A DNA stretch of 51,465 nucleotides from positions 1 through 51,465 of IMG/VR virus record IMGVR_UViG_3300025128_000057. The stretch is one strand, 5' to 3'. The position numbers and the translations under genes were made by a program. This DNA comes from a virus. Within the stretch, counting starts at the first letter, position 1; each line of letters opens with the position of its first letter. The notes beneath the pieces are model-generated. The model searched no databases and was not told the origin of the DNA. It worked only from the letters and a program-made list of their open reading frames with translations. Of this stretch, positions 5,309 through 27,231 are shown piece after piece.

Positions 5309-5831
5309 GGCTACCGCCTCGCCCAATCTGTTTCATGCCTTCCATAAGTTCGTCAGGCATTTCAAGTGTCGGATCAGCTTGCTGAAGGCGTCGGCGGTCA
5401 TCACGCTCTTTCGCTGCGTTAAAGGCTTTCACGAAGTGGAACCGATCGTTATCGGGTCGCTCCGAACGACAGAGGTCTCCCCAGCCGCCGCAGGACTTCA
5501 TAGCAGCCTTGATTTCATCATTCAGGTCACCCGGCCCTCCATTAAAACCAACTCGCCTTATACGTTCGCACACAAGCTCCCATGCCTGTTCGCCTGTCAT
5601 GGCCTCAGGGTCATGGATTGCGGCTCGCCGGATAGTCGTGATCGCAGGGAAATAGGCTTGTTCCGTAAGGAGCGTATTCTTCGTTGCTTCCCAAGACCTT
5701 GGGTGAAGATCCCATAGCAAGTTGATGTATTCATCAATCTGAGGGTCAGTCAGTTCCCGGTTGTAAATTTCAGATAGCTCTGTGATCGCTATTGCCGCTG
5801 CCCGTCGCCCTTGCCGTTCTGTCTCGTTCAT
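5295..5831 (-). CDS. Helicase-loader-like (gp39P-type) protein, 178 aa
   Basis: Residues about 10-80 (ITELSEIYNRELTDPQIDEYINLLW, then FPAITTIRRAA) match the helical layout of gp39P-type helicase loaders common in phages of Gram-positive bacteria. The C-terminal half is charged and helical. It sits directly downstream of the initiator gene (ATGA overlap), the classic initiator-loader order. It probably recruits the host replicative helicase to the phage origin. The overlapping downstream gene appears to be a shorter paralogue. Confidence 0.6.
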   Translation of the reverse strand: MNETERQGRRAAAIAITELSEIYNRELTDPQIDEYINLLWDLHPRSWEATKNTLLTEQAYFPAITTIRRAAIHDPEAMTGEQAWELVCERIRRVGFNGGPGDLNDEIKAAMKSCGGWGDLCRSERPDNDRFHFVKAFNAAKERDDRRRLQQADPTLEMPDELMEGMKQIGRGGSHESI

Positions 5832-6628
5832 AGTTCGCCCCGATCAACTTTGGCTTGCATTCGCTTAAAGGTTTTCTGGCCTGCTGACAACGGTTCGCTG
5901 CCAACGATCTCATCTTCCCAGCGTTTATCACGTACCCAGCGTTCAGGGTCTTGCCTGTATTGCTTCTCCCGTGACGCTGCATATTCCGTTGCCTTCGCAA
6001 TAACCAGTTCGGCCAGAGCCACATCCTTGATGTGTTTGGCCCAATGCTTTTGGGTGGCTGGCTTATTGACCTTCTTGCCATAAACATCCCAGAACTCATC
6101 AAACATTTCAGTGGCAAGTTGTTTCTCATCAACAAGTTCAATTTCGCCCGAATCAAAAAACTCCAGTATTTGAGTTCCTTTTTTATGAGTTTCTATTAAT
6201 GAGTTAATTGGGAGCGCGTTTTCACGCGCCTCGACCCGCGTGGTTTCACGCGCCTCGACCCGCGTGGTTTCGCGCTCCTCCCTTCGCGCGTTATCGCGCG
6301 CTTCCTCAACCACTTCTTTAGGGTAAAGAAGCTCGTACAGGTTGCTGGTCTGGCGTCCATCGTCATACTGAGATTGAACGATGAGCAAACCCTTTTCTTC
6401 TAGTTCAGCCCTCGCCCTGCGGAGTGTGCCTGAGTTGGTGCCTTCAGGTAGTAGTTCAAGTAATGAGCGGCTACTAGGAAAGCACTTGTTCGTTTTAGTG
6501 TTACGGAACTTTGCAAGAGCGATCCATAACCGTAGGGCGGTCGGTGACAATTTCACCTGTAGCAGGTCAACGGGTATGTGGATAGTGTTTGCATCCCACT
6601 TTGCCATTTTTGTGTTAGGCTGGTTCAT
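5828..6628 (-). CDS. Winged-helix replication initiator, 266 aa
   Basis: Residues about 15-105 form a replication-protein type winged helix (KLSPTALRLWIALAKF, CFPSSRSLLELLPEG, TLRRARAELEEKGLL). A linker with an exact tandem octapeptide repeat (ETTRVEAR, residues 120-135) follows. The C-terminal domain opens with FDEFWDVYGKKVNKP, typical of phage replication initiators. The linker DNA holds 24-bp repeats next to an A/T-rich tract, so the origin probably lies inside the gene as in lambda O. Start at 6628 with GGAGTG upstream. The gene follows the terminator at 6663-6701. Confidence 0.75.
   Translation of the reverse strand: MNQPNTKMAKWDANTIHIPVDLLQVKLSPTALRLWIALAKFRNTKTNKCFPSSRSLLELLPEGTNSGTLRRARAELEEKGLLIVQSQYDDGRQTSNLYELLYPKEVVEEARDNARREERETTRVEARETTRVEARENALPINSLIETHKKGTQILEFFDSGEIELVDEKQLATEMFDEFWDVYGKKVNKPATQKHWAKHIKDVALAELVIAKATEYAASREKQYRQDPERWVRDKRWEDEIVGSEPLSAGQKTFKRMQAKVDRGEL
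6140..6300. other. Candidate replication origin inside the initiator gene
   Basis: Two perfect 24-bp direct repeats (6221-6244 and 6245-6268) and a degenerate third share the words CACGCGCC and CCCGCGTGG. A CGCG-rich stretch extends to about 6300. Immediately beside them, 6140-6212 is strongly A/T-rich (runs of T and A, TTAATGAGTTAATT), suited to be an unwinding element. Iterons plus A/T tract within the initiator coding sequence mirrors the lambda O/ori layout. No DnaA box was seen. Confidence 0.5.
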
Positions 6629-12676: not shown

Positions 12677-12952
12677 ATGTATATGGGACCAAACATATTG
12701 AAAGACTGGCGTCCCACCAGCCCTTTGCCGCAACAAATTCGCAGCGAAGCGCGGTGTGCCGGAGCGCCAATCGACTGGTTCTATCCAGACAAAGGGAAAT
12801 GGGCTATCGGCAGGCAACTGTGCCGGATGTGCCCGGTACAAGAGGAATGTTTGCAATATGCGTTGGATAACAAAATCCGACACGGAACTTGGGGCGGATA
12901 CACCTCCCGAGAACGCTACCGAATGGGAAAGCAACGGAATGACGGAACTTGA
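12677..12952 (+). CDS. WhiB-family Fe-S transcription factor
   Basis: A 91-aa WhiB-like protein with four cysteines (27, 49, 52, 58) in the order C...CxxC...C that binds a 4Fe-4S cluster, then the family turn GTWGG (70-74) and a basic C-terminus. WhiB proteins are confined to actinobacteria and their phages, and act by binding the host primary sigma factor. This is the strongest host indicator in the window. A phage WhiB may redirect host transcription or block superinfection. No clear Shine-Dalgarno precedes it. Confidence 0.92.
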   Translation: MYMGPNILKDWRPTSPLPQQIRSEARCAGAPIDWFYPDKGKWAIGRQLCRMCPVQEECLQYALDNKIRHGTWGGYTSRERYRMGKQRNDGT

Positions 12953-13574
12953 AACTGAACTTGTGAGCGTGGAATCGGCTGTGTTGTCAACTCATCCTGA
13001 TAATGCTCGCCGTGGAAATGTTGATGCGATCAGAGAGTCGATACGCACGAACGGTTTTTATGGGGCGATCATCGCCCAGAAATCTACGGGCCACATCATT
13101 GTAGGTAACCACCGTTACACGGCTGCTGTGCAGGAGGGCATCACTGAGATCCCTGTTATTTGGCGTGATTGCACGGATGATGAGGCTCGGAAGTTGTTGC
13201 TAGTCGATAACCGTTCTAGTGACGCTGGTTCGTATGACGAGGAATCGTTACGTGATCTGCTTGCTTTGACCCTCGATTCGACTGGCGACCTGCTTGGCAC
13301 CGGTTACGAACAGGATGATCTTGAAGCGTTAATGTTTTCGCTTGAAATTAGTAGCACCGATTTCGGTGAGTTGTTGCCGGACGCTCTCACTCCAGATGAG
13401 GCGGCTGATAGTTATCAAGCTGCCGGTATACGTTCAATCATTTTGCCTTATGATCTTGATGACTACAACAGCATCGTAGAGATGTTCGAAAAGGCACGCT
13501 CCGGTTTAAGCGTTGACTCGAACGCTGACGTAGTTCGGGTGTTGTTGGCTGGTTACACAGATGCAAATAGTTGA
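12939..13574 (+). CDS. ParB/Srx-like N-terminal domain protein, 211 aa
   Basis: Residues about 10-95 match the ParB-like nuclease/sulfiredoxin domain: NARRGNVDAIRESIRTNGFYGAIIAQ, then IIVGNHRYTAAVQEG (GNHR box at 56-59) and LLLVDNRSSD. The rest is acidic and lacks ParB's HTH, so it is not a partition protein. In phages this domain is known to be linked to DNA-modification enzymes and terminase, as here. A CTP-binding/NTPase switch or nuclease role is inferred. It overlaps whiB by 14 bases. Confidence 0.8.
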   Translation: MTELETELVSVESAVLSTHPDNARRGNVDAIRESIRTNGFYGAIIAQKSTGHIIVGNHRYTAAVQEGITEIPVIWRDCTDDEARKLLLVDNRSSDAGSYDEESLRDLLALTLDSTGDLLGTGYEQDDLEALMFSLEISSTDFGELLPDALTPDEAADSYQAAGIRSIILPYDLDDYNSIVEMFEKARSGLSVDSNADVVRVLLAGYTDANS

Positions 13575-14430
13575 GGTTGACCGTGTTGACTGGTCACCTG
13601 ATGAGAAGAACCAGCGCGTAGACGAACTCCCTGACGGTGTTCGCCTTATCGATGGTGACGCTGTTCTGGTTGACGGGGAACGGGAAACGGTTGCCGCTCA
13701 AATTATTGCTGGCCCTGAAAGTAGTGGCCGTCTAGCGTGGTTTGGTCGCGAGATGCACAGCAAACCAAAGGTATGGCACGATGATCGCCATACAGCGAAC
13801 GCTTCATCTCGGTTATCAGGCGTTCTTTACCCGAACAGGACGTTCGGGACAGCGGCACCGTCAGCTTTACGTCGCCGGTTTTGGTGTAGTGCGGCTACGT
13901 TCGATCAGCAGCACCCTAAGATCGCTGCGGAGTTACGGAATCTCGCGGTCGTGGCTTGGGAAACGTGCCAGAAGGTGATGCCTGAAGCGGCAGAACACAC
14001 AGCGGAAACGGTTTACCCCAAAATCCATGATGATTGGTTGCTGTTCGATGCGCCTTGGACAAGCGGAATCATCAATAAGAGCGCAGCTTTGCCATATCAC
14101 CGTGATTCAGGCAACATCAAGGGAGCTATTTCAGCGATGTGGGTTGTCCGTTCACGCATCAAGGGCGGCTATTTACATATCCCTGAATACAACGTCGCTT
14201 TCACTTGCCCAAACAAATCGTTACTCATGTTCGATGGGCAAAGCCTGTGGCATGGGGTAACACCATTCGAAACTGAGAGCCATCCTGAGGCTTTCCGGTT
14301 CAGCGTCGTGTATTACGCCAAGACTGGTTGCCAGAAATGCGGACCGGCCCATAGCGAAGCTGAACGAGCGCAACTGAAACGCACAGAAGAACACGAAACA
14401 CACCGTGACGAAATGATCGACAACTCATGA
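13561..14430 (+). CDS. TET/JBP-like 2OG-Fe(II) oxygenase, 289 aa
   Basis: The double-stranded beta-helix core shows LPYHRDSGNIKGAIS (His180, Asp182 iron ligands), GGYLHIPEYNVAF, LLMFDGQSLWHGVTPF (His231, third ligand) and FRFSVVYYA with Arg246 to hold 2-oxoglutarate. Spacing and the HGVTP motif match TET/JBP-type nucleic-acid oxygenases, which oxidise 5-methylcytosine or thymine in DNA. Its neighbours (ParB-like domain, P-loop kinase, helical modification protein, terminase) are those reported for phage TET/JBP loci. No cytosine-5 methyltransferase is seen, so thymine or host-made 5mC would be the substrate. A C-terminal CxxC and charged tail follow. Confidence 0.7.
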   Translation: MQIVEVDRVDWSPDEKNQRVDELPDGVRLIDGDAVLVDGERETVAAQIIAGPESSGRLAWFGREMHSKPKVWHDDRHTANASSRLSGVLYPNRTFGTAAPSALRRRFWCSAATFDQQHPKIAAELRNLAVVAWETCQKVMPEAAEHTAETVYPKIHDDWLLFDAPWTSGIINKSAALPYHRDSGNIKGAISAMWVVRSRIKGGYLHIPEYNVAFTCPNKSLLMFDGQSLWHGVTPFETESHPEAFRFSVVYYAKTGCQKCGPAHSEAERAQLKRTEEHETHRDEMIDNS

Positions 14431-15410
14431 TGGCTGAAACGCATTTACGGTTCTTGGCTGACTTCACTCGATATGAGCGTGCTGTTGGTGGACCTGACCC
14501 ACATATGCGCATCGTTTGTGAAGGCATCATCGAACCTGAGTGGGCACCGGTGGATAAGGCGTGGATGATTGGCTGCTATCTTGCGCCATACAACGTGCCG
14601 ACTGGTGAAGTGATTTTCCATCACTGGCCTACCGCTAGTTCAGTGTTAAATAATCCTGATGGGTTGAAGCGTTGGATCAAAGAAGCATGGCCAGCGATGT
14701 CGCTACGTAGGGAACGCCGAGCGATACGCACCCCAGTGAAACTCGCTGACCATTTAATCAATTACGCAGAATGGTGTGTTGTTCGTTCAGGAAAGATTCA
14801 CGCCGAACTGGACGCTGATCGGGTTTGGCGCGAGTTGATGACAATTCAGGGAAACGGTCGTTACGCAACTATCAAAACGTATGAAGCGTTGCAGCGCGTA
14901 GGTGTTGTCGGTCCACCGTTCCCTGATATCCGACCGCATGGCGGCTGGTCACCGAGGGAAATGCTTGCGAAACTACACCCAGACGTTCAAGCTGCTTTGA
15001 ATGGCGGTAATACCGCTGTCCTCTGCCAGCTTGCTAACGACCGAGCCGAAATATCAAAAAAAGATCTTGAAGCTGAACTGTCAGACACCGTGGACTGGTA
15101 CACGATGGAAGTCGTGCTCTGCGAATATAAGCAGGCATGGGATGGCGGCCAATATCCGGGCAGAGCACATGACTCAGAACTAGGCCACATCATCAAAGTG
15201 GAACCCCAATGGCCTGACGTACCGTTCCGGTCCCTCGAAATCCGTTCCAACATGTTCCCCCATTTGGCTTTAGGGGAGCTAAACGGTTGGGAAGGTAGGC
15301 GTGATGGCTTAGGCGGTTGCCCTTCACAACACGGGTATATGTGGACAGACACACTGTACGAGTGGACACCTGAAATGGATTTATCAGACCCTGAAAAGAG
15401 GTCTAAATGA
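14427..15410 (+). CDS. Helical DNA-hypermodification-type protein (aGPT-PPlase/HMUDK-helical-like), 327 aa
   Basis: A mostly helical protein with FLADFTRYERAVGGPDP, MIGCYLAPYNVPTGEVIFHHW, a basic segment SLRRERRAIRTP, then NGRYATIKTYEALQRVG and DIRPHGGWSPREML. The look is that of the helical proteins that act with P-loop DNA kinases in thymidine hypermodification (alpha-glutamyl/putrescinyl-thymine pyrophosphorylase or the 5-hmdU-kinase helical domain). I cannot tell which clade. It is ATGA-coupled to the oxygenase. If correct, it would transfer a group onto a phosphorylated hydroxymethyl base. Confidence 0.45.
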   Translation: MMAETHLRFLADFTRYERAVGGPDPHMRIVCEGIIEPEWAPVDKAWMIGCYLAPYNVPTGEVIFHHWPTASSVLNNPDGLKRWIKEAWPAMSLRRERRAIRTPVKLADHLINYAEWCVVRSGKIHAELDADRVWRELMTIQGNGRYATIKTYEALQRVGVVGPPFPDIRPHGGWSPREMLAKLHPDVQAALNGGNTAVLCQLANDRAEISKKDLEAELSDTVDWYTMEVVLCEYKQAWDGGQYPGRAHDSELGHIIKVEPQWPDVPFRSLEIRSNMFPHLALGELNGWEGRRDGLGGCPSQHGYMWTDTLYEWTPEMDLSDPEKRSK

Positions 15411-16054
15411 TCTTGTATCAAGAAGCCCGTAACCAGTGGGCTGAGAATTTGCTTTATCGTGAAGCCGGTCCAGATATTGACTGTATACGTGAACAAAGAC
15501 GTGAGTATGGTTTGATTGATTGGGCTAACCATGACGTACTTGACCTCGGTGCGAACATCGGAGCGTTTGCACGTTTCGCAGTGATGCATGGCGCAGAGTT
15601 TGTGACTTGCGTCGAGCCTGATAAACGAAATATTGAAGTCTTCAAAGCAAACATGATGACTGACGTCATGTATCTGTATGAAGCTGCGGTCAACAATGAT
15701 GGGCAGTCAGGTGAGCTTTACCTCGCTAACAATGATCAACATTGGTCGCATACAACGGTCCCCTTACGTGGAAGGGAATCAGTTTCTGTTAATGGCGTCG
15801 CCTTGAAGAATTTGGTTTGGAATCAAACGGCAATCAAATGCGATATCGAAGGCGGCGAATACGGCCTCGACTGGTCGGTACTCGCTGATACCGAAGTTCG
15901 TACAGTGATTATGGAACTTCATTTAACGAAACGAGAGTGGCGTCGGGTTGAAGCACCCAAACTATTTGAGGCCTTCGCTGAGCTTGGCTTCACTATCAAT
16001 AACCCTGAAATACCTGAAAAGAGTTGGAACATGGTAAGGAGTTGGACCAGATGA
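15407..16054 (+). CDS. FkbM-like SAM-dependent methyltransferase, 215 aa
   Basis: A Rossmann methyltransferase. Motif I is VLDLGANIGAFARFA, the acidic residue after strand two is in VEPDKRNIEVFKANM, and the FkbM signature is IKCDIEGGEYGLDW. FkbM enzymes usually O-methylate sugars or hydroxyls. In this context a modified base, or a sugar attached to it, is a plausible acceptor. ATGA overlaps join it to both neighbours. A lipid or glycan target is the alternative. Confidence 0.75.
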   Translation: MILYQEARNQWAENLLYREAGPDIDCIREQRREYGLIDWANHDVLDLGANIGAFARFAVMHGAEFVTCVEPDKRNIEVFKANMMTDVMYLYEAAVNNDGQSGELYLANNDQHWSHTTVPLRGRESVSVNGVALKNLVWNQTAIKCDIEGGEYGLDWSVLADTEVRTVIMELHLTKREWRRVEAPKLFEAFAELGFTINNPEIPEKSWNMVRSWTR

Positions 16055-16524
16055 AAATGTATTACTACGGACACAGCCTGTACACGAGAGGTAAACCACT
16101 ACCTCAGCACGTCGATTGGTTAAAGAAACACAACTTCCTTGTTGTCTCACTTTCACCGGCTTACCCGGAACACCTCGAAGCGTTAGGCGACAAATCAATC
16201 CACATTCCGTTACCAGACGGCAAACTCACCGACGAAGTGATCAAAGAAGTGACACGCGCCAAAGAACACGTCGTTGAGTACGCAAAAACAAACGAACCAG
16301 TCCTCACCCACTGCAACGCCGGACGTAACCGCGCAGCCCTAGTCACCGGCCTCGCATACGCCGATCTAGCCGAAACATCAGGCAACATTGCTTTAACCCA
16401 CGTAAGGCAGATACGACCCAACTCGCTAGCCAACGAAGAATTCGCTACCTACCTACAACATTACCGCCCATACCAAAACATCGCAGCGCTACACAAAGCA
16501 GGCGTCAAATTCACAAGCCTATGA
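16051..16524 (+). CDS. Dual-specificity/tyrosine-type Cys phosphatase, 157 aa
   Basis: A compact phosphatase with the CX5R signature HCNAGRNR (Cys88 nucleophile, Arg94) and the preceding beta strand EPVLTHC. A general-acid Asp may be in LPDGKL (about residue 56). The family removes phosphate from proteins, nucleotides or inositides. Within a kinase-transferase cassette it might proofread or discharge a phosphorylated intermediate. That role is inference. It is ATGA-coupled to the kinase gene that follows. Confidence 0.75.
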   Translation: MKMYYYGHSLYTRGKPLPQHVDWLKKHNFLVVSLSPAYPEHLEALGDKSIHIPLPDGKLTDEVIKEVTRAKEHVVEYAKTNEPVLTHCNAGRNRAALVTGLAYADLAETSGNIALTHVRQIRPNSLANEEFATYLQHYRPYQNIAALHKAGVKFTSL

Positions 16525-17090
16525 CAACAACCGTTTACTTAATCGGAGTACCGGGAGCCGGTAAATCAACCGCTCTCGCAGCAGCAATAGATCACCTCGG
16601 CTGGGATACACCCGAACTACGCACACAACCCTTCGCCCATTCATGGTATGAGCGACCCAACGCAGCGGTGCTAGGCAAACAGCGTTCCACATTCCCCGGC
16701 ACAGACACCCTCGCCTTAGGCGTCAACCCTAAAGCAATCCAATTCATCCAAACCACTGACGCAAAACTCGTACTAGGCGAAGGCGACCGTTTAGCCAACG
16801 TGAAGTTCCTCACCGCCGCAACCCAGACAGGGGAAACAGTGTTAATCAACCTTCACCTACCAGCCACTGTCGCATACCAGCGCATGCTCAACAGAGCCGA
16901 CAACCTCGACATACCACCACAGAAAGAATCATGGTGGAACGGTAGAGCCACCAAAACACACAACCTCAAACAACTCAAACTCCCCGGACTACGACACGAA
17001 ACAGTTAACGGCACCCAAACCGTAGAACACATCGCAGAACAAATAGCCGACATAATCGACTACGCCACACCCAAAACAACAAGAAAGTAA
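16521..17090 (+). CDS. P-loop kinase, 189 aa
   Basis: A Walker A motif GVPGAGKST lies at residues 9-17. Strands around LVLGEGDRLANVKF and TVLINLHLP and a lid-like basic segment (RATKTHNLKQL) suggest a nucleotide/nucleoside or DNA-base kinase of the adenylate-kinase-like group. Given the oxygenase and helical protein upstream, phosphorylation of a 5-hydroxymethyl base in DNA (as by 5-hmdU DNA kinases) is the leading hypothesis. A free-nucleotide kinase is the alternative. Confidence 0.7.
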   Translation: MTTTVYLIGVPGAGKSTALAAAIDHLGWDTPELRTQPFAHSWYERPNAAVLGKQRSTFPGTDTLALGVNPKAIQFIQTTDAKLVLGEGDRLANVKFLTAATQTGETVLINLHLPATVAYQRMLNRADNLDIPPQKESWWNGRATKTHNLKQLKLPGLRHETVNGTQTVEHIAEQIADIIDYATPKTTRK

Positions 17091-17116: not shown

Positions 17117-17680
17117 ATGGGACCACGACCAACAAACCTCACACCAGAAGTAGCCGCCAAATACCGGCAAGTCGTAAACATGCGCGTACAGGGAGCGACG
17201 TTCGATCAAATCGCTGACCGTGTTGGTTACGCCGGACGGCAGGGTGCTTATGATGCTTATCGTGCTGCGTTGAAGTGGTGGGGTAGAGATGGGGTTGAGG
17301 AGGCACGCCAGCTTGAATCGGAGCGGCTTGACCGTTTACATCAGTCAACGACGTTGATGTTGGAAGCTGCACAGCAGGAGTCGATTCAGGTTAGTTACGC
17401 TGCTGATGGAACTGAGATTCGTACGCCGACGTTTGCTCCTGAGGTTTTGGCTGCGGTGAATACGGCTGTGAATGTTTCTCGTCGCCGTTCTTCTTTGCTT
17501 GGTTTGGATGCACCGAAACAGGTTGAGGTTGCTGGTGCGGATGGTGGCCCGGTGGTCACGGACATCGGAGAGCTTCTGAGAGAGCGTATGGAGGCCGTTA
17601 AGCCCGGATCGACGGTAAATGCCACATTGGATACAACGGCATCTCAGAATGGCTTACATTCGGAGCAGGGTGATGGCTGA
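17117..17680 (+). CDS. Terminase small subunit, 187 aa
   Basis: The N-terminal HTH (residues about 10-55: VNMRVQGATFDQIADRVGYA, GAYDAYRAALKWW) and a helical oligomerisation region with RRRSSLLGLDAPKQVEV are typical of actinophage small terminases. It recognises the packaging site and hands DNA to the large subunit, which it overlaps by 8 bases. The 26-base gap before it contains a direct repeat CTCCGGACA (17091 and 17106 region) that could be part of the recognition site. Confidence 0.85.
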   Translation: MGPRPTNLTPEVAAKYRQVVNMRVQGATFDQIADRVGYAGRQGAYDAYRAALKWWGRDGVEEARQLESERLDRLHQSTTLMLEAAQQESIQVSYAADGTEIRTPTFAPEVLAAVNTAVNVSRRRSSLLGLDAPKQVEVAGADGGPVVTDIGELLRERMEAVKPGSTVNATLDTTASQNGLHSEQGDG

Positions 17681-19004
17681 GGAATCTCTGTGGCAGTGTT
17701 TAATAACGGAGATGTCATATGAGGAACGCGAGAAAGTCATATCAGACTTCAATGATGAACACGCTCAGAGTTTCCTGCATTCATGGGGCGTGTATCGCAG
17801 GCCTTCGCAAGCAACCCCTGTAGGTGATTGGCGTGTTTGGCTGATTCTCGCTGGCCGTGGCTGGGGTAAGACCCGTACTGGTGCTGAATTCATCCGTGAA
17901 CAAGTAGATGCCGGAAACGCTGAACATATCGCCCTTGTCGGTCCGACCGCTGGTGACGTTAGGGACACCATGATTGAGGGTGAGTCCGGCCTTCTAGGTA
18001 TTTACCCTGCGAGCCAAAGACCGAAATACGAGCCATCGAAACGTAGGGTCACGTTCCATAACGGGGCAGTCGCTACAGCTTTCTCCGCTGATGAGCCTGA
18101 TCGTTTACGTGGACCTAACCATGATTTGGCGTGGGCTGATGAACTTGCCGCATGGAGGTATGCCGATGCGTGGGATATGTTGCAGTTCGGTTTACGTATA
18201 GGTAAACAACCCCGAACCGTAGTCACGACAACACCGAAACCCATCCCGATAGTGAAACGGCTAGTAGCGACTGATGATGGCACTGTCCACATCACGAAAG
18301 GCAGCACATTCGATAACTCCCTGAACCTTGCTGGCTCGTTCCTTGATGAAGTTACCGCACGCTATGAGGGGACAAGGTTGGGGCAGCAAGAACTTTACGC
18401 AGAAATCCTTGATGACGTTGAGGGCGCACTATGGGATCGTGACCAGATCGAGGAACACAGGGTTACCGTTCACCCACCGTTGAAACGCATCGTTGTTGGC
18501 GTTGATCCTTCTGCTGGGTCGAAAGCTACGAGCGATGAGACAGGCATCGTGGTAGTTGGCCTTGGTGAGAACGGTGAAGGCTACGTGCTTGATGACGTTT
18601 CGCTTCGTGGAACACCTAACGACTGGGGCCGTGCGGCGGTAGCTGCCTACCACAAGTTCAGCGCTGACAGGATCGTCGCAGAATCCAACCAAGGCGGAGA
18701 AATGGTTTCGCACACGCTGAGAACAGTTGACGAGAACGTGCCTATCAAACTGGTTCACGCGTCGAAAGGGAAACGAACAAGAGCGGAACCAGTGTCAGCG
18801 CTATATGAACAAGGCAGAATCCACCATCATGGCTTTCACGCTAATCTTGAAGATCAAATGTGTAGCTGGGTTCCTGATTTCTCGGATTCACCTGACAGGG
18901 TAGATGCGTTGGTTTGGGGATTAACTGAACTGATGTTGGGGCATAAGCAACAGCCAGTAGTTGCACCGACCGGCATTACTGGCGCTAGCCAGTGGAGGTT
19001 GTGA
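17673..19004 (+). CDS. Terminase large subunit, 443 aa
   Basis: ATPase: Walker A GRGWGKT at 61-67, Walker B LAWADE at 152-157, and a coupling segment TTTPKPIPIVK. C-terminal RNase H-like nuclease: VGVDPSAG near residue 277, a middle acidic strand in IVAESNQGG, and DRVDALVWGLTEL near the end. It powers DNA entry into proheads and cuts the concatemer. The start at 17673 follows GGAG by eight bases. An in-frame ATG at 17649 is possible. Confidence 0.93.
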   Translation: MAEESLWQCLITEMSYEEREKVISDFNDEHAQSFLHSWGVYRRPSQATPVGDWRVWLILAGRGWGKTRTGAEFIREQVDAGNAEHIALVGPTAGDVRDTMIEGESGLLGIYPASQRPKYEPSKRRVTFHNGAVATAFSADEPDRLRGPNHDLAWADELAAWRYADAWDMLQFGLRIGKQPRTVVTTTPKPIPIVKRLVATDDGTVHITKGSTFDNSLNLAGSFLDEVTARYEGTRLGQQELYAEILDDVEGALWDRDQIEEHRVTVHPPLKRIVVGVDPSAGSKATSDETGIVVVGLGENGEGYVLDDVSLRGTPNDWGRAAVAAYHKFSADRIVAESNQGGEMVSHTLRTVDENVPIKLVHASKGKRTRAEPVSALYEQGRIHHHGFHANLEDQMCSWVPDFSDSPDRVDALVWGLTELMLGHKQQPVVAPTGITGASQWRL

Positions 19005-23272: not shown

Positions 23273-23716
23273 ATGTCGGACGCCGATGATTTGGTTGCCA
23301 AGATTAGAGCCATAGCCGATGAAGTCGAAGGCACAGCTACGTCAGTAACAGAACGTGCTCAGGCAGCAGTAGACAAAGCCGAGCAAGCTGTATCTAAGTT
23401 CAGAGCGGCGCTTCAGTCGGTCATGGACAACATCGCTTGGATCGCTGGGTTACCAGCAGTGTTAGGTGGTGGCTTCGGTTTCTTGAAGTCGAATGCGGAT
23501 GACACAGCAGCGGCTGACTGGCAAATGGAACAATTAACTGAACGTGTCGCTGAGTTAGAGTCATCGAACAATTTGCTTGGCGGCGATACGAAAAACTTTT
23601 CACTGAACTTGGGCGACGCTCCGGGCGGCAGCATGACCGCAGCATTGGTTTTCGTAATCCTTGGCGCTCTGATCTGTGGAGCAGTCATTTGGCAACAAAG
23701 AAGGCGACGGCGTTAA
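23273..23716 (+). CDS. Coiled-coil membrane protein, 147 aa
   Basis: The first 50 residues are an Ala/Glu-rich coiled coil, followed by a weakly hydrophobic Gly-rich stretch (IAWIAGLPAVLGGGFGFL). A second coiled region (MEQLTERVAELE) and a C-terminal transmembrane helix (MTAALVFVILGALICGAVIW) end in QQRRRRRR. The polyarginine stop-transfer puts the C-terminus inside. It overlaps the lipoprotein gene by 28 bases, so the two may act as a pair at the membrane. A second holin or tape-like role cannot be excluded. Confidence 0.65.
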   Translation: MSDADDLVAKIRAIADEVEGTATSVTERAQAAVDKAEQAVSKFRAALQSVMDNIAWIAGLPAVLGGGFGFLKSNADDTAAADWQMEQLTERVAELESSNNLLGGDTKNFSLNLGDAPGGSMTAALVFVILGALICGAVIWQQRRRRR

Positions 23717-26700
23717 GCCGTGTCATAGGTGCCCTGCTTGGGGCAGCAGTCTTAGTAACCGGTTGCAGCGGTGGAACTTCGCCGCGTCCTGAAACGAGTA
23801 CGCAACAAACAGCGCAAGCGATCACGGTTGACACAACACCGCCAGTAGAAACTGGGTTGGAAGTTAGCCAAGTAGTCACATTGGATTACCAACCAAACGA
23901 TGACGGGTTCGGTTTCGCTAACTACGGAGGCGGAAACGCTCCTGCTGCTTTAACTGTGAACCTTGCTCGCCGCTTGTATGGAGATGCTCAGGTTTGCGCG
24001 TCGGTGAGCGCTGATGATGAATGCACACCGCAGCCCGTGATCTTGCAGTTGATTGATCAAGCGAACCGGGCGATGGCCGGTGGGCTTTGTGAAGGGTTCG
24101 CTGTCCTGTCCCTACGCTTATATCAGGAGGGTGCGACAACGAGCTTGCTAGGGCAGGAAGCGCTTGTTGCTGCGTTGGAGCAAGGCGACCCTCGTGTGGC
24201 CGCAGAGTTGGCGTTCTGGTTTGTTACACAGTTCGCCTCGGAGACGCAAGCTGCCGCAGCGTTTTATCGAGAACAAAGCCCTAGTGAAATCGTCGCAACG
24301 CTTGCCGACGACTTTGCTAATCCGCTTACGAGCGCTGGTTACACGCTTGGTTTGTATTCTGCGGAAGGTGGGCACGCTGTAACTCCTTACGCAGTTGAAG
24401 CGGTGGACGGCGGTTCCCGTATTTACATTTACGATTCTAACTGGCCTAACGAGACACGCTGGATCGATGTTGTGGACAACGTGTGGACCTATGCGCTAGC
24501 TGCAACAAACCCAACAGAAACAGCCTCTGCATGGACGGGCAGCACAGGAACACTTGAACTGACACCGATGGCTTCACGGCAACCACCGTTTGCTTGTGCG
24601 TTCTGCCCTCAACCTGACGGCACGAAATCGATGACGCTACTCACAGCGGCAGGGTCGAACGATACGCAGCTTGCTTTACAGGTCACCGATGATCAAGGGA
24701 ACCGGCTTGGTGTGTTTGACGGTGAACTCGTCAACGAAATCCCGGGTTCTGTTTATCGGTATATAGCGACATCGAACACGGCTGATCCGGTAATGATCCT
24801 GTTGCCTGCTTCTGTGGAGAACTACACGGCGGATGTTGCGACGGTTGGCCCTCAGGCTGTCAATGAGGACGGTTCTTCAGTGGAAGAAACTGGGGCCGTA
24901 TCGATCTTTGTTGCTCAGGATGGGGCAGCGGCACGGGTTGAAACATCGATCGCCGACGTAACAGACGAAGCGGACGATGAACCCGTGCTCGCCGTCAGCG
25001 AAGACGCAGGCTACGAAGTCAACGACCTTGAAGAAGCCGCTATCGACATAGCCGACCAGAACGTGGCGGTGAGCGTCACAATCCAAGACGACCAAGAACT
25101 AGCGTTCCAGTTCACGCCCCCACCAGCGCCTGTAGGAACGCCTGACAGCAGCGAAACACCAGACACGGGTGACAATACCCCAGAATCACCCGAACCCGTT
25201 ACAGCGCCACAGATCATGCTCTCAATCGCAACTGACGACGGTGAACAGGTAGCAGAGATCGAAATCATCCAAACCGAGGACAGTGAAGCACCTGAAGAAA
25301 TCGTCATCGAAATCGATGAGGAGGGCGAAGTTGAACTGGTTGTTGAAGAAATTGAGGCGCGTCCTGCGACGATTGTGGCTGAGTTACGAGAGTTGGTGGA
25401 AGAACGCCTAGAAGCCGACCCTGAACAACAAGACGACTGGTTCGTAGCACCAGATGAGAGTGAGGGCGAACCGTTCATCCTTGACCTTGAAGACGACTTC
25501 TGGGATGAAGAAGTTTGGGAAGAAGACTGGCACGAAGAAGACGATGACTGGGTATGGGTCGAATCAGACGACTTTGTTGAATGGGTCGAAGAAGAAGGCG
25601 ACGACAGTTTCCTCGCCGCGATTGTTGACGACACATTTATCGAAGAAATGGAGGAACTCATCACACGTACCGAAGATCGGATCGATGAGCTACCCGACCG
25701 TATCGAAGGTGAGTGGGGTGATGACGGGTTCGTAGTCGAAATCGTGATCGTTGAAGAAGACGACGAAGTGTTAATCGTTATCGAAGATCCGTTGCCACCA
25801 ATCGAGGAACGGCCCGAAGACCCAGAAGACGACACGCATACCCCCAATATAGATCCACCTGACATGACGATGCCTGATTGGTTGATACCAGACGACGACG
25901 GCGAAATCTGGTGGGATGACGACGACGACTGGGGAGGCGGCGGCGATGTTGATGACGGGATGTGGCTCGATATCCCTGACATCACGTTGCCTGAATGGAA
26001 CACTGATGATGACGACGATTGGCCCGATGATGCACCTGACCTCAACGACATCCCAGACGAAACCAACGGAACTGACACCGATGACTCTGATGACCAAGAT
26101 CAAGATGATGACGATCAACCGGATACAGGCACGCAGGTGGGAGAAGGCCCAGAGCCGCCGGAACCACCCGACGAAGTGGATTCCGATGACGACCTATCTG
26201 GAGGAGAACCCGGAGATGACACACCTGACGCCCCAGTAATCGAAGATCCTCCGCCACCACCTCCGCAACCTTCTTGGAGCGGTGGACAAGACTCGTATTT
26301 AGAAACACTGCCCGATGAAACCAGCACAGCAACAGACACGACAACAACAACGAACGTCACCTCAGCGCTTGGTTTCAATTCGAGTGATGGCTACTGGTAT
26401 CAAACAGTCACTACAGCGACGACGGTTACGGAAACAGAAACCGTTAGCACTATTTCTGCCACAAGACTCCGCACCTATTCATGGTCCTGTTACGACGACG
26501 GACTTGGGAACAGTTCATGCGATGACGCAACCAGTTACAGCAACACGCAATCCACCACAGCCGTCGCTGATCCGACCGTCGTCGATACCACCACAACTTC
26601 AGTTATCACAACGATTCCGGCTAGCTGTTCGCAAGGCGGCTGGACTGGGTTCGGTGACTGGTGCATTGTCGGCGGCTGCTCAGTTTGTAATTCGAGTACG

Positions 26701-27231
26701 CCACAAACTCCGGCGAACCGTAACCAGCGAGACATAATCCAGTTCACAGTTCCCGATGATCCTGACGTGGTAGGGGAAACACGTCGAATCGTGATTGAAG
26801 CTGAAACGAATCTGCGACGTGACCAGTTCGGCCAAAACAATCAGCACGCCGACCCGTACGTCTACCTGTACAACGACACAGACGCCGACGTGGGTGACCA
26901 CACTGGCGACACTGACGAATACACCCGTGGCACGCTGATCGATCAGGACGACGACGGAGGCCGAGACTGTTCCGTTGGCGGTGACTCATGGAATTGCGCT
27001 AGTCCACCAGCCGATGCTGAGGACGAAGCTGAGTTCCCGAACGACACGATTGTTGGATACTCAACGCCACGACCAGTTATCCAGAACGTACAAAACCAGT
27101 GGGACGCTGAGATCGACCGATTAATGGAACCCGGCGACTACGCTGTTGAAGCAACTGTCTACAACGCTGCAAATGCTGGCTGGTATCGCTTAACTATTAG
27201 CGATGAGACAGTGGAAAGCGATGGTTCCTGA
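23689..27231 (+). CDS. Giant predicted lipoprotein with papain-like protease domain, 1180 aa
   Basis: A TTG start with GGAG upstream gives a signal peptide ending in lipobox LVTGC (Cys26). Residues about 85-260 look papain-like: GGLCEGFAVLSL (Cys134), GGHAVTPYAV (His229), YDSNWPN (Asp249/Asn251). A beta-rich part follows. A very acidic stretch (about 530-870) is dense in Asp, Glu and Trp and probably disordered or calcium-binding. A Thr/Cys region (about 890-1000) and a C-terminal domain resembling PPC-type beta-sandwiches (about 1010-1175) end the protein. It should be lipid-anchored outside the host membrane. Superinfection exclusion or surface remodelling is inferred; it is unlike any virion protein I know. 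Confidence 0.7.
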   Translation: MATKKATALSRVIGALLGAAVLVTGCSGGTSPRPETSTQQTAQAITVDTTPPVETGLEVSQVVTLDYQPNDDGFGFANYGGGNAPAALTVNLARRLYGDAQVCASVSADDECTPQPVILQLIDQANRAMAGGLCEGFAVLSLRLYQEGATTSLLGQEALVAALEQGDPRVAAELAFWFVTQFASETQAAAAFYREQSPSEIVATLADDFANPLTSAGYTLGLYSAEGGHAVTPYAVEAVDGGSRIYIYDSNWPNETRWIDVVDNVWTYALAATNPTETASAWTGSTGTLELTPMASRQPPFACAFCPQPDGTKSMTLLTAAGSNDTQLALQVTDDQGNRLGVFDGELVNEIPGSVYRYIATSNTADPVMILLPASVENYTADVATVGPQAVNEDGSSVEETGAVSIFVAQDGAAARVETSIADVTDEADDEPVLAVSEDAGYEVNDLEEAAIDIADQNVAVSVTIQDDQELAFQFTPPPAPVGTPDSSETPDTGDNTPESPEPVTAPQIMLSIATDDGEQVAEIEIIQTEDSEAPEEIVIEIDEEGEVELVVEEIEARPATIVAELRELVEERLEADPEQQDDWFVAPDESEGEPFILDLEDDFWDEEVWEEDWHEEDDDWVWVESDDFVEWVEEEGDDSFLAAIVDDTFIEEMEELITRTEDRIDELPDRIEGEWGDDGFVVEIVIVEEDDEVLIVIEDPLPPIEERPEDPEDDTHTPNIDPPDMTMPDWLIPDDDGEIWWDDDDDWGGGGDVDDGMWLDIPDITLPEWNTDDDDDWPDDAPDLNDIPDETNGTDTDDSDDQDQDDDDQPDTGTQVGEGPEPPEPPDEVDSDDDLSGGEPGDDTPDAPVIEDPPPPPPQPSWSGGQDSYLETLPDETSTATDTTTTTNVTSALGFNSSDGYWYQTVTTATTVTETETVSTISATRLRTYSWSCYDDGLGNSSCDDATSYSNTQSTTAVADPTVVDTTTTSVITTIPASCSQGGWTGFGDWCIVGGCSVCNSSTPQTPANRNQRDIIQFTVPDDPDVVGETRRIVIEAETNLRRDQFGQNNQHADPYVYLYNDTDADVGDHTGDTDEYTRGTLIDQDDDGGRDCSVGGDSWNCASPPADAEDEAEFPNDTIVGYSTPRPVIQNVQNQWDAEIDRLMEPGDYAVEATVYNAANAGWYRLTISDETVESDGS

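Follow-up and report, generated by a model that had tools for sequence, protein, structure and literature searches.

Organization of the gene cassette

The window (the whole stretch of viral DNA analysed, 51,465 nucleotides) contains six open reading frames between 12939 and 17090, neighbours overlapping by 4-14 nt, followed by two terminase genes:

12939-13574, + strand: ParB-like domain protein; ATG at 12939, first gene of the cassette
13561-14430, + strand: TET/JBP 2OG-Fe(II) dioxygenase (Tet_JBP; H180/D182/H231/R246)
14427-15410, + strand: putative ADDT (amino acid:DNA transferase, aGPT-Pplase2) of a divergent clade (PF18724, hhalign)
15407-16054, + strand: FkbM-family SAM methyltransferase (PF05050, TIGR01444, motifs)
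16051-16524, + strand: dual-specificity Cys-X5-Arg phosphatase (DSPc, HCNAGRNR)
16521-17090, + strand: P-loop nucleotide kinase 3, predicted 5-hydroxymethyl-base kinase (PF18751, Walker A)
17117-17680, + strand: TerS-like terminase small subunit (phrog_645)
17619-19004, + strand: TerL, terminase large subunit (phrog_979, E 7e-43)

The preliminary description had recognized a six-gene base-modification cassette just 5' of the terminase; the six reading frames are where it placed them, and every domain name it gave was borne out by Pfam, NCBIfam, or profile comparisons. Gene identities, intact catalytic motifs, and conserved gene associations can be read directly from the sequence. The terminase genes are neighbours of the cassette and lie outside the pathway considered below. 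The complete six-gene order also occurs in another phage contig (L010/L011) whose backbone differs and where no terminase was seen adjoining it, and because the order is kept on that different backbone, the arrangement is not due to chance. GenBank phages gave no nucleotide match to the window, and a search of genome contigs found no relatives.

ParB, the TET dioxygenase, and the target base

The first protein matches ParB_N (Pfam, E 7.9e-8) and phrog_723 (5.9e-39); a ParB gene lies 5' of TET in most of 87 TET loci, and its product is probably a DNA-handling or targeting partner. The oxygenase matches Tet_JBP in Pfam (2.2e-10, 40.5 bits vs. a cut-off of 34.9), and the residues H180, D182, H231, and R246, already named at the outset, are not only intact but invariant across 11 diverse homologues. 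Its profile also matches Naegleria Tet and human TET2 in the PDB (E 8e-4 to 2e-3). On this homology, the enzyme is predicted to make a 5-hydroxymethyl base in DNA.

The target might be cytosine rather than thymine, with TET converting host- or phage-made 5-methylcytosine to 5hmC before phosphorylation and decoration. Characterised phage TETs reportedly use 5mC and have C5-methylases co-encoded (work by Burke in 2021), and a C5-methylase is present in 9/50 TET contigs. However, neither the window nor any of seven TET actinophages with complete genomes, ADDT-bearing ones included, was found to encode a C5-cytosine methylase, and the characterised kinase/amine-transfer pathways use 5hmU as substrate (PMC6449724). 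We consider cytosine less likely than thymine, and the cytosine route as a whole unlikely.

The putative ADDT and its kinase

Two profiles had been put forward for the 14427-15410 protein. One, ADDT (formerly aGPT-Pplase2), was matched, but the other, HMUDK_hel (PF18723), was not among its Pfam matches. The ADDT match of the window protein (PF18724, E 2.5e-5) scores 24.6 bits, just under the Pfam cut-off of 26.2, while homologues in L003, L010, and L011 exceed the cut-off at 28.6-31.7 bits (E 1e-9 to 1e-10). The same family includes proteins of ViI (E 5e-60), M6 (2e-48), and phiW-14 (4e-12). When the window-type helical protein was compared by hhalign with a ViI/M6/Gordonia ADDT set, the probability was 97.7% (E 1.7e-12), and R98, G144, E228, and C232 of the window protein are invariant and common to the ViI, M6, and phiW-14 proteins. 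The resemblance to proteins of thymidine hypermodification proposed at the outset is thus upheld by profile-profile comparison and by invariant residues. When only window-type ADDTs went into the profile, HMMER did not recover the solved glycinyltransferase 8z2m/25qc; a profile that included M6 and ViI did match the solved ADDT, but this was partly due to M6 and ViI themselves and was discounted for the window. AlphaFold models of ADDT and TET from five-sequence alignments were poor (pLDDT 56 and 40), and Foldseek with the low-confidence ADDT model returned nothing informative. By homology, the ADDT would swap a base phosphate for an amino acid or amine.

The kinase is a Ploopntkinase3 protein (Pfam PF18751, E 1.6e-18, 67.4 bits vs. 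a cut-off of 27) with a conserved Walker A motif, GVPGAGKST, and a conserved GEGDRL. Over 88 TET loci, this kinase is present in all 25 cassettes with an ADDT but in only 10 of the 63 without (Fisher 3e-14; 5e-11 and 3e-8 when TETs are grouped at 90% and 60% identity, respectively). An ADDT was never found together with a glycosyltransferase (0/40). Both patterns are expected if phosphate activates the hydroxymethyl group, and they suggest that amino-acid transfer and glycosylation may be alternative fates of one hydroxymethyl group. The originally proposed sequence of oxidation, phosphorylation, and group transfer gains support from the strict ADDT-kinase co-occurrence and from the ADDT homology to the ViI/M6 family.

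The methyltransferase and phosphatase

The fourth gene had been called FkbM-like, and its product scores above the cut-offs of both Methyltransf_21 (Pfam PF05050, 2.8e-5) and NCBIfam fkbM_fam (TIGR01444, 43.3 bits vs. 37.7) and carries the SAM motifs DLGANIGAFA, EP, and KCDIEGGEY. A separate FkbM clade adjoins TET or HMUDK_hel in 72/80 viral loci, against 0/60 for generic FkbM controls. Membership of the window enzyme in this large clade was considered and rejected: it falls on the opposite side of a 96/85 branch, grouping with L010, L014, L015, L074, L251, and generic FkbMs. FkbM enzymes were thus recruited into such cassettes at least two times. A close relative of the window cassette, L003, lacks FkbM, so methylation would be optional, and since related FkbMs accompany TET alone, the enzyme may act directly on the hydroxymethyl group. 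We infer that it methylates either the decoration or the hydroxymethyl.

The phosphatase matches DSPc (Pfam, E 2.1e-10, 41 bits vs. a cut-off of 33.5), and the Cys-X5-Arg motif for which it had been named, HCNAGRNR, is invariant in three relatives, as is the PDG loop. It is found only within one ADDT clade, the DSP-associated clade that includes the window ADDT (support 100/99), where it adjoins the ADDT in eight of nine phosphatase loci. In L251, where FkbM adjoins ADDT and phosphatase, the phosphatase relative and the kinase form a single fusion protein, in which each partner keeps its catalytic motif. The phosphatase therefore probably acts on the base phosphate, as judged from this gene context.

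FkbM and phosphatase families both have many non-DNA substrates, and the two genes could of course be unrelated operon passengers with host proteins, sugars, or nucleotides as their targets; the absence of FkbM from L003 would fit. The restriction of the phosphatase to one ADDT clade, the L251 arrangement, and the 72/80 vs. 0/60 association of another FkbM clade all argue against passengers, and we regard this explanation as improbable, a little more so than the cytosine route. That FkbM and phosphatase genes are found again in other phages, next to base-modification genes of the kinds seen here, strengthens the case for a functional cassette and points to uncharacterised DNA decorations in phages.

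Adjacency to the terminase

The kinase also adjoins the terminase in mycobacteriophages Boehler, Hashim76, and Funsized, where neither TET nor ADDT was matched, so the kinase may have a wider role. Terminase adjacency was also considered as a mark of a modification gene, but is weakened as such by these TET-less phages. An alternative in which the kinase assists packaging or the terminase, with the phosphatase as its antagonist and the DNA modified by TET, ADDT, and FkbM only, would suit those three phages and the PHROG 800 label of the kinase (terminase small subunit), but is very improbable given the presence of the kinase in every ADDT cassette, its movement with the cassette in L010 with no terminase seen adjoining, and the separate TerS-like gene in the window.

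Comparison with known systems

The ParB-TET-aGPT-Pplase2-5hmU kinase core is already annotated in Gordonia phages. Gordonia phages Wooper and LittleMunchkin and Rhodococcus phage Tonitrus share the four core genes and their order, near the terminase, but have a Rossmann/FAD-type oxidoreductase as the extra enzyme, lack FkbM and phosphatase, and carry an ADDT of a different clade. The Tonitrus cassette has been discussed as a thymine hypermodification system (PMC11955845). We found no paper describing the FkbM and phosphatase additions; the combination with them had been thought undescribed, and what is new are the additions and not the core.

ViI, M6, and phiW-14 share with the window the ADDT family and the hydroxymethyl-phosphate-amine logic of thymidine hypermodification, but make 5hmU before replication; for ViI and M6, this is reportedly the picture in Lee's work of 2018 and 2022. 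None of the three has a match to TET or to the window's kinase family, and in M6 a PLP-type enzyme, judged by eye, adjoins the ADDT. In the subset of window proteins that was scanned, no dUMP hydroxymethylase of the thymidylate-synthase family, the enzyme expected of a pre-replicative route, turned up. Cassettes of TET and a TET-associated glycosyltransferase (TAGT, PF20691; 34/87 loci) likewise have a ParB-TET-decorating enzyme-terminase layout, but carry a sugar where the window would carry an amino acid or methyl, and ADDT is never present. At loci of HMUDK_hel, a 5-hmdU DNA kinase, FkbM adjoins a hydroxymethyl-base kinase domain, sometimes with an ADDT, but the kinase family differs from that of the window; TET was looked for at these loci and not found, and many of those tested have a thymidylate-synthase-family gene.

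Predicted pathway and implications

We put the probability that TET, kinase, ADDT, FkbM, phosphatase, and ParB form a post-replicative DNA base hypermodification cassette at about 0.78; the chemistry, substrate base, order of late steps, and purpose are predictions from sequence. TET would act on phage DNA, oxidising a 5-methylpyrimidine, with thymine the likeliest, to the 5-hydroxymethyl form (probably 5hmU), and the P-loop kinase would phosphorylate the hydroxymethyl. With phosphate as leaving group, the ADDT would couple the base to the nitrogen of an amino acid or a similar amine. FkbM might then O- (or N-) methylate the attached group or cap leftover hydroxymethyls, and the phosphatase might strip phosphate from activated, unconverted bases or from the decoration; methylation following substitution, and the editing role of the phosphatase, stay as conjectural as when first proposed. 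A pyrophosphorylated hydroxymethyluracil intermediate accumulates in phiW-14 (PMC5977210). ParB probably aids engagement of DNA, and the likely purpose would be protection from host restriction, perhaps linked to packaging.

More tentatively, FkbM-family enzymes could be a dedicated and so far undescribed class of DNA-base methyltransferase for hydroxymethylpyrimidines or their amino-acid derivatives, TET-FkbM giving 5-methoxymethyl pyrimidine. The product of the window cassette would then be a methylated amino-acid-substituted pyrimidine, and unreacted phosphorylated bases would be reset by a phosphatase dedicated to that task. To the known slots on phage hydroxymethyl bases, glycosylation and aminoacylation, the cassette probably adds one for methylation, and probably also a step that resets phosphate. 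New nucleosides are predicted in virion DNA of TET-FkbM or HMUDK-FkbM phages, and the phosphatase is predicted to work on DNA in which a base carries phosphate. DNA labelling would profit from enzymes of this kind, as would work on how phages escape restriction.

Cassette layout and suggested host

The six overlapping genes of the preliminary description were recovered in the 51,465-base IMG/VR virus record, with each identity backed by Pfam, PHROGs, and NCBIfam between them. Neighboring genes overlap pairwise by 4-14 nt.

Genes of the cassette, in order
12939-13574: ParB
13561-14430: TET/JBP, a 2OG-Fe(II) dioxygenase
14427-15410: helical protein, an amino acid:DNA transferase (ADDT)
15407-16054: FkbM methyltransferase
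16051-16524: Cys-X5-Arg phosphatase
16521-17090: P-loop kinase

Because a WhiB transcription factor gene (12677-12952, E 1e-16) lies immediately upstream, overlapping the start of ParB, and relatives occur among phages of Mycobacterium, Gordonia, Microbacterium, Arthrobacter, and Rhodococcus, an actinobacterial host is suggested. Elsewhere in the window, a 1180 amino acid ORF of the structural region (23689-27231) had no Pfam or PHROG matches, and a 24-bp tandem repeat (2.5 copies, 6220-6280) lies within a replication-initiation-like gene (5828-6628).

The order ParB-TET-ADDT-kinase, then a further gene and terminase, also occurs in Gordonia phages Wooper and LittleMunchkin. Rhodococcus phage Tonitrus has it too, apart from a few small insertions, and there it is described as thymine hypermodification (PMC11955845). 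The window cassette is thus a variant and not a new system, and novelty is confined to two add-ons, FkbM and the phosphatase. All six genes occur in identical order in IMG/VR contig 3300009149_000273 (L010), where TET and ADDT are 40-66%, and FkbM and phosphatase 60-68%, identical to those of the window, and where no terminase was seen beside the cassette; the order is likewise kept in a second locus, L011. L003, whose ADDT is 81% identical to that of the window, lacks FkbM alone, and L002, which has neither FkbM nor phosphatase, carries the kinase and TET along with a different type of ADDT; FkbM is therefore an optional part of the cassette. In other ADDT cassettes, the tailoring position is taken by Rossmann/FAD-type oxidoreductases or by a PLP enzyme of the PALP fold (L004:3054-3926, L161:2503-3330, L110:8862-9770), and in three loci (L248, L249, L250) the cassette is split in two, ADDT-phosphatase being convergent with kinase-TET-ParB on the opposite strand.

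Core enzymes and the substrate base

The helical protein, previously likened to those of thymidine hypermodification, is by profile comparison a divergent ADDT. It matches PF18724 at E 2.5e-5, 1.6 bits under the curated cut-off, and its orthologues in L003, L010, and L011 score above that cut-off; in profile-profile comparison, the window group matched the ADDTs of ViI, M6, phiW-14, Gordonia, Rhodococcus, and Microbacterium with 97.7% probability over 260 columns. ViI, M6, and phiW-14, whose genes match PF18724 at 5e-60, 2e-48, and 4e-12, respectively, are phages with hypermodified thymine (PMC6449724, PMC5977210).

Residues H180, D182, H231, and R246 are invariant across 11 aligned TETs from diverse cassettes. 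When a profile of these 11 was run against the PDB, Naegleria Tet and human TET2 matched at E 8e-4 to 2e-3 and were outranked by no other oxygenase family. The TET/JBP assignment stands: the enzyme does not group with hydroxylases of proteins or small molecules. PHROG 6059 and many GenBank records label this family (window:13561-14430; L005:810-1766) "queuine tRNA-ribosyltransferase", apparently a misannotation. Searches of the window and of the complete records of seven TET actinophages turned up no C5-cytosine methylase, and just 9/50 TET contigs have one. On these grounds thymine, which is also the substrate of JBP, is the more probable target; oxidation of host-made 5mC is the less likely alternative.

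Walker A and the GEGxRL motif are intact in the kinase. Its family (PF18751) also adjoins terminase in Boehler, Hashim76, and Funsized, where a TET or ADDT match is absent, and this terminase-side kinase is a weak point of the mechanism proposed below. PF18751 kinases directly precede terminase in mycobacteriophages without a TET or ADDT match (L078:1-567, L076:1515-2060, L077:4948-5517), one of which has a deazaguanine pathway; PHROG 800 labels the kinase "terminase small subunit".

TET loci were gathered and their neighbors scored by profiles built for this analysis. Directly after TET in the 87 loci were a TET-associated glycosyltransferase (34), ADDT (24), kinase (7), FkbM (5), and a second putative glycosyltransferase type, assigned by eye with no Pfam match (6). 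A ~330 amino acid family right after TET (L093:7834-8826 and five relatives), without a Pfam match, has by eye the look of a GT-B glycosyltransferase. The loci are fragments and mutually related, making co-occurrence numbers indicative: a kinase accompanies ADDT in 25/25 loci versus 10/63 without ADDT (87 loci plus the window; Fisher 3e-14), and after grouping by TET the association remains at 5e-11 (90% identity) and 3e-8 (60% identity). Glycosyltransferase and ADDT never share a cassette (0/40). That ADDT always occurs with kinase and never with glycosyltransferase matches the expectation for one hydroxymethyl group with two alternative fates, transfer of a sugar or phosphate-activated transfer of an amine.

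The methyltransferase and the phosphatase

The window FkbM keeps its SAM motifs. In the five TET loci with FkbM right after TET, ADDT or kinase was not found elsewhere in the contig. Scanning with this TET-adjacent FkbM clade yielded 80 viral loci (L167-L246), 72 of them with FkbM beside TET or HMUDK_hel, the helical domain of 5-hmdU DNA kinase. TET adjoins FkbM in 56/80 (upstream in 46, downstream in 10) and HMUDK_hel in 16/80, six of the latter also with ADDT; given the TET-adjacent queries, the TET association is partly built in, a bias that does not extend to HMUDK_hel and ADDT. HMUDK_hel was identified at Pfam E 1e-35 to 1e-51 in 5/5 representatives tested. Five loci lacked such neighbors and three were cut off; among 60 generic viral FkbM control loci, none had such neighbors. 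On the tree, a 96/85 split separates the window FkbM from the TET-adjacent clade, so FkbM entered such cassettes at least twice. The region around an FkbM relative in MW202657 includes a gene that carries the annotation pyrimidine hydroxymethylase and matches the thymidylate synthase family. The open-access papers searched, which do not include several key ones, gave no report that connects FkbM to TET or to base hypermodification.

The window phosphatase keeps HCNAGRNR and the PDG loop. Among the 87 TET loci, phosphatases are limited to ADDT-plus-kinase cassettes; the adjoining ADDTs form a single clade (support 100/99), and a search with that clade gave nine loci, in eight of which a phosphatase adjoins ADDT. 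At L251:6071-7135, one 354-residue protein fuses phosphatase (DSPc, residues 29-145, E 7e-14) and kinase (Ploopntkinase3, residues 152-305, E 2e-6) with both motifs intact, and its gene adjoins ADDT and FkbM. Because of this fusion, phosphatase and base kinase likely act on a shared substrate, and the phosphatase may proofread phosphorylated bases or dephosphorylate the transferred group. In L253, a weak phosphatase-like gene without a Pfam match has ADDT on one side and, on the other, an HMUD-like P-loop kinase with HMUDK_hel.

Proposed pathway

The base-hypermodification reading of the preliminary description is supported in its core by the TET catalytic residues, ADDT homology, and ADDT-kinase co-occurrence. 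TET would generate a 5-hydroxymethyl base; its family and residues are observed, DNA and thymine being the predicted substrate. The kinase would activate the 5-hydroxymethyl group, as suggested by its family, its co-occurrence with ADDT, and the phosphorylated intermediate known from phiW-14 (PMC5977210). By homology, ADDT would then add an amino acid or amine. FkbM would methylate either the ADDT-attached group, favored for the window enzyme because FkbM-ADDT pairs exist, or the free hydroxymethyl, favored for the TET-adjacent clade because TET-FkbM pairs occur without a kinase; the phosphatase would reset the base phosphate. Predicted structures were of poor quality, a weak point of the mechanism, and the chemistry steps rest on sequence comparison.

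Comparative evidence shows that FkbM and the phosphatase recur in DNA hypermodification loci as components and not as passengers, and the L167-L246 FkbM clade likely represents a new family of DNA-modification methyltransferases.
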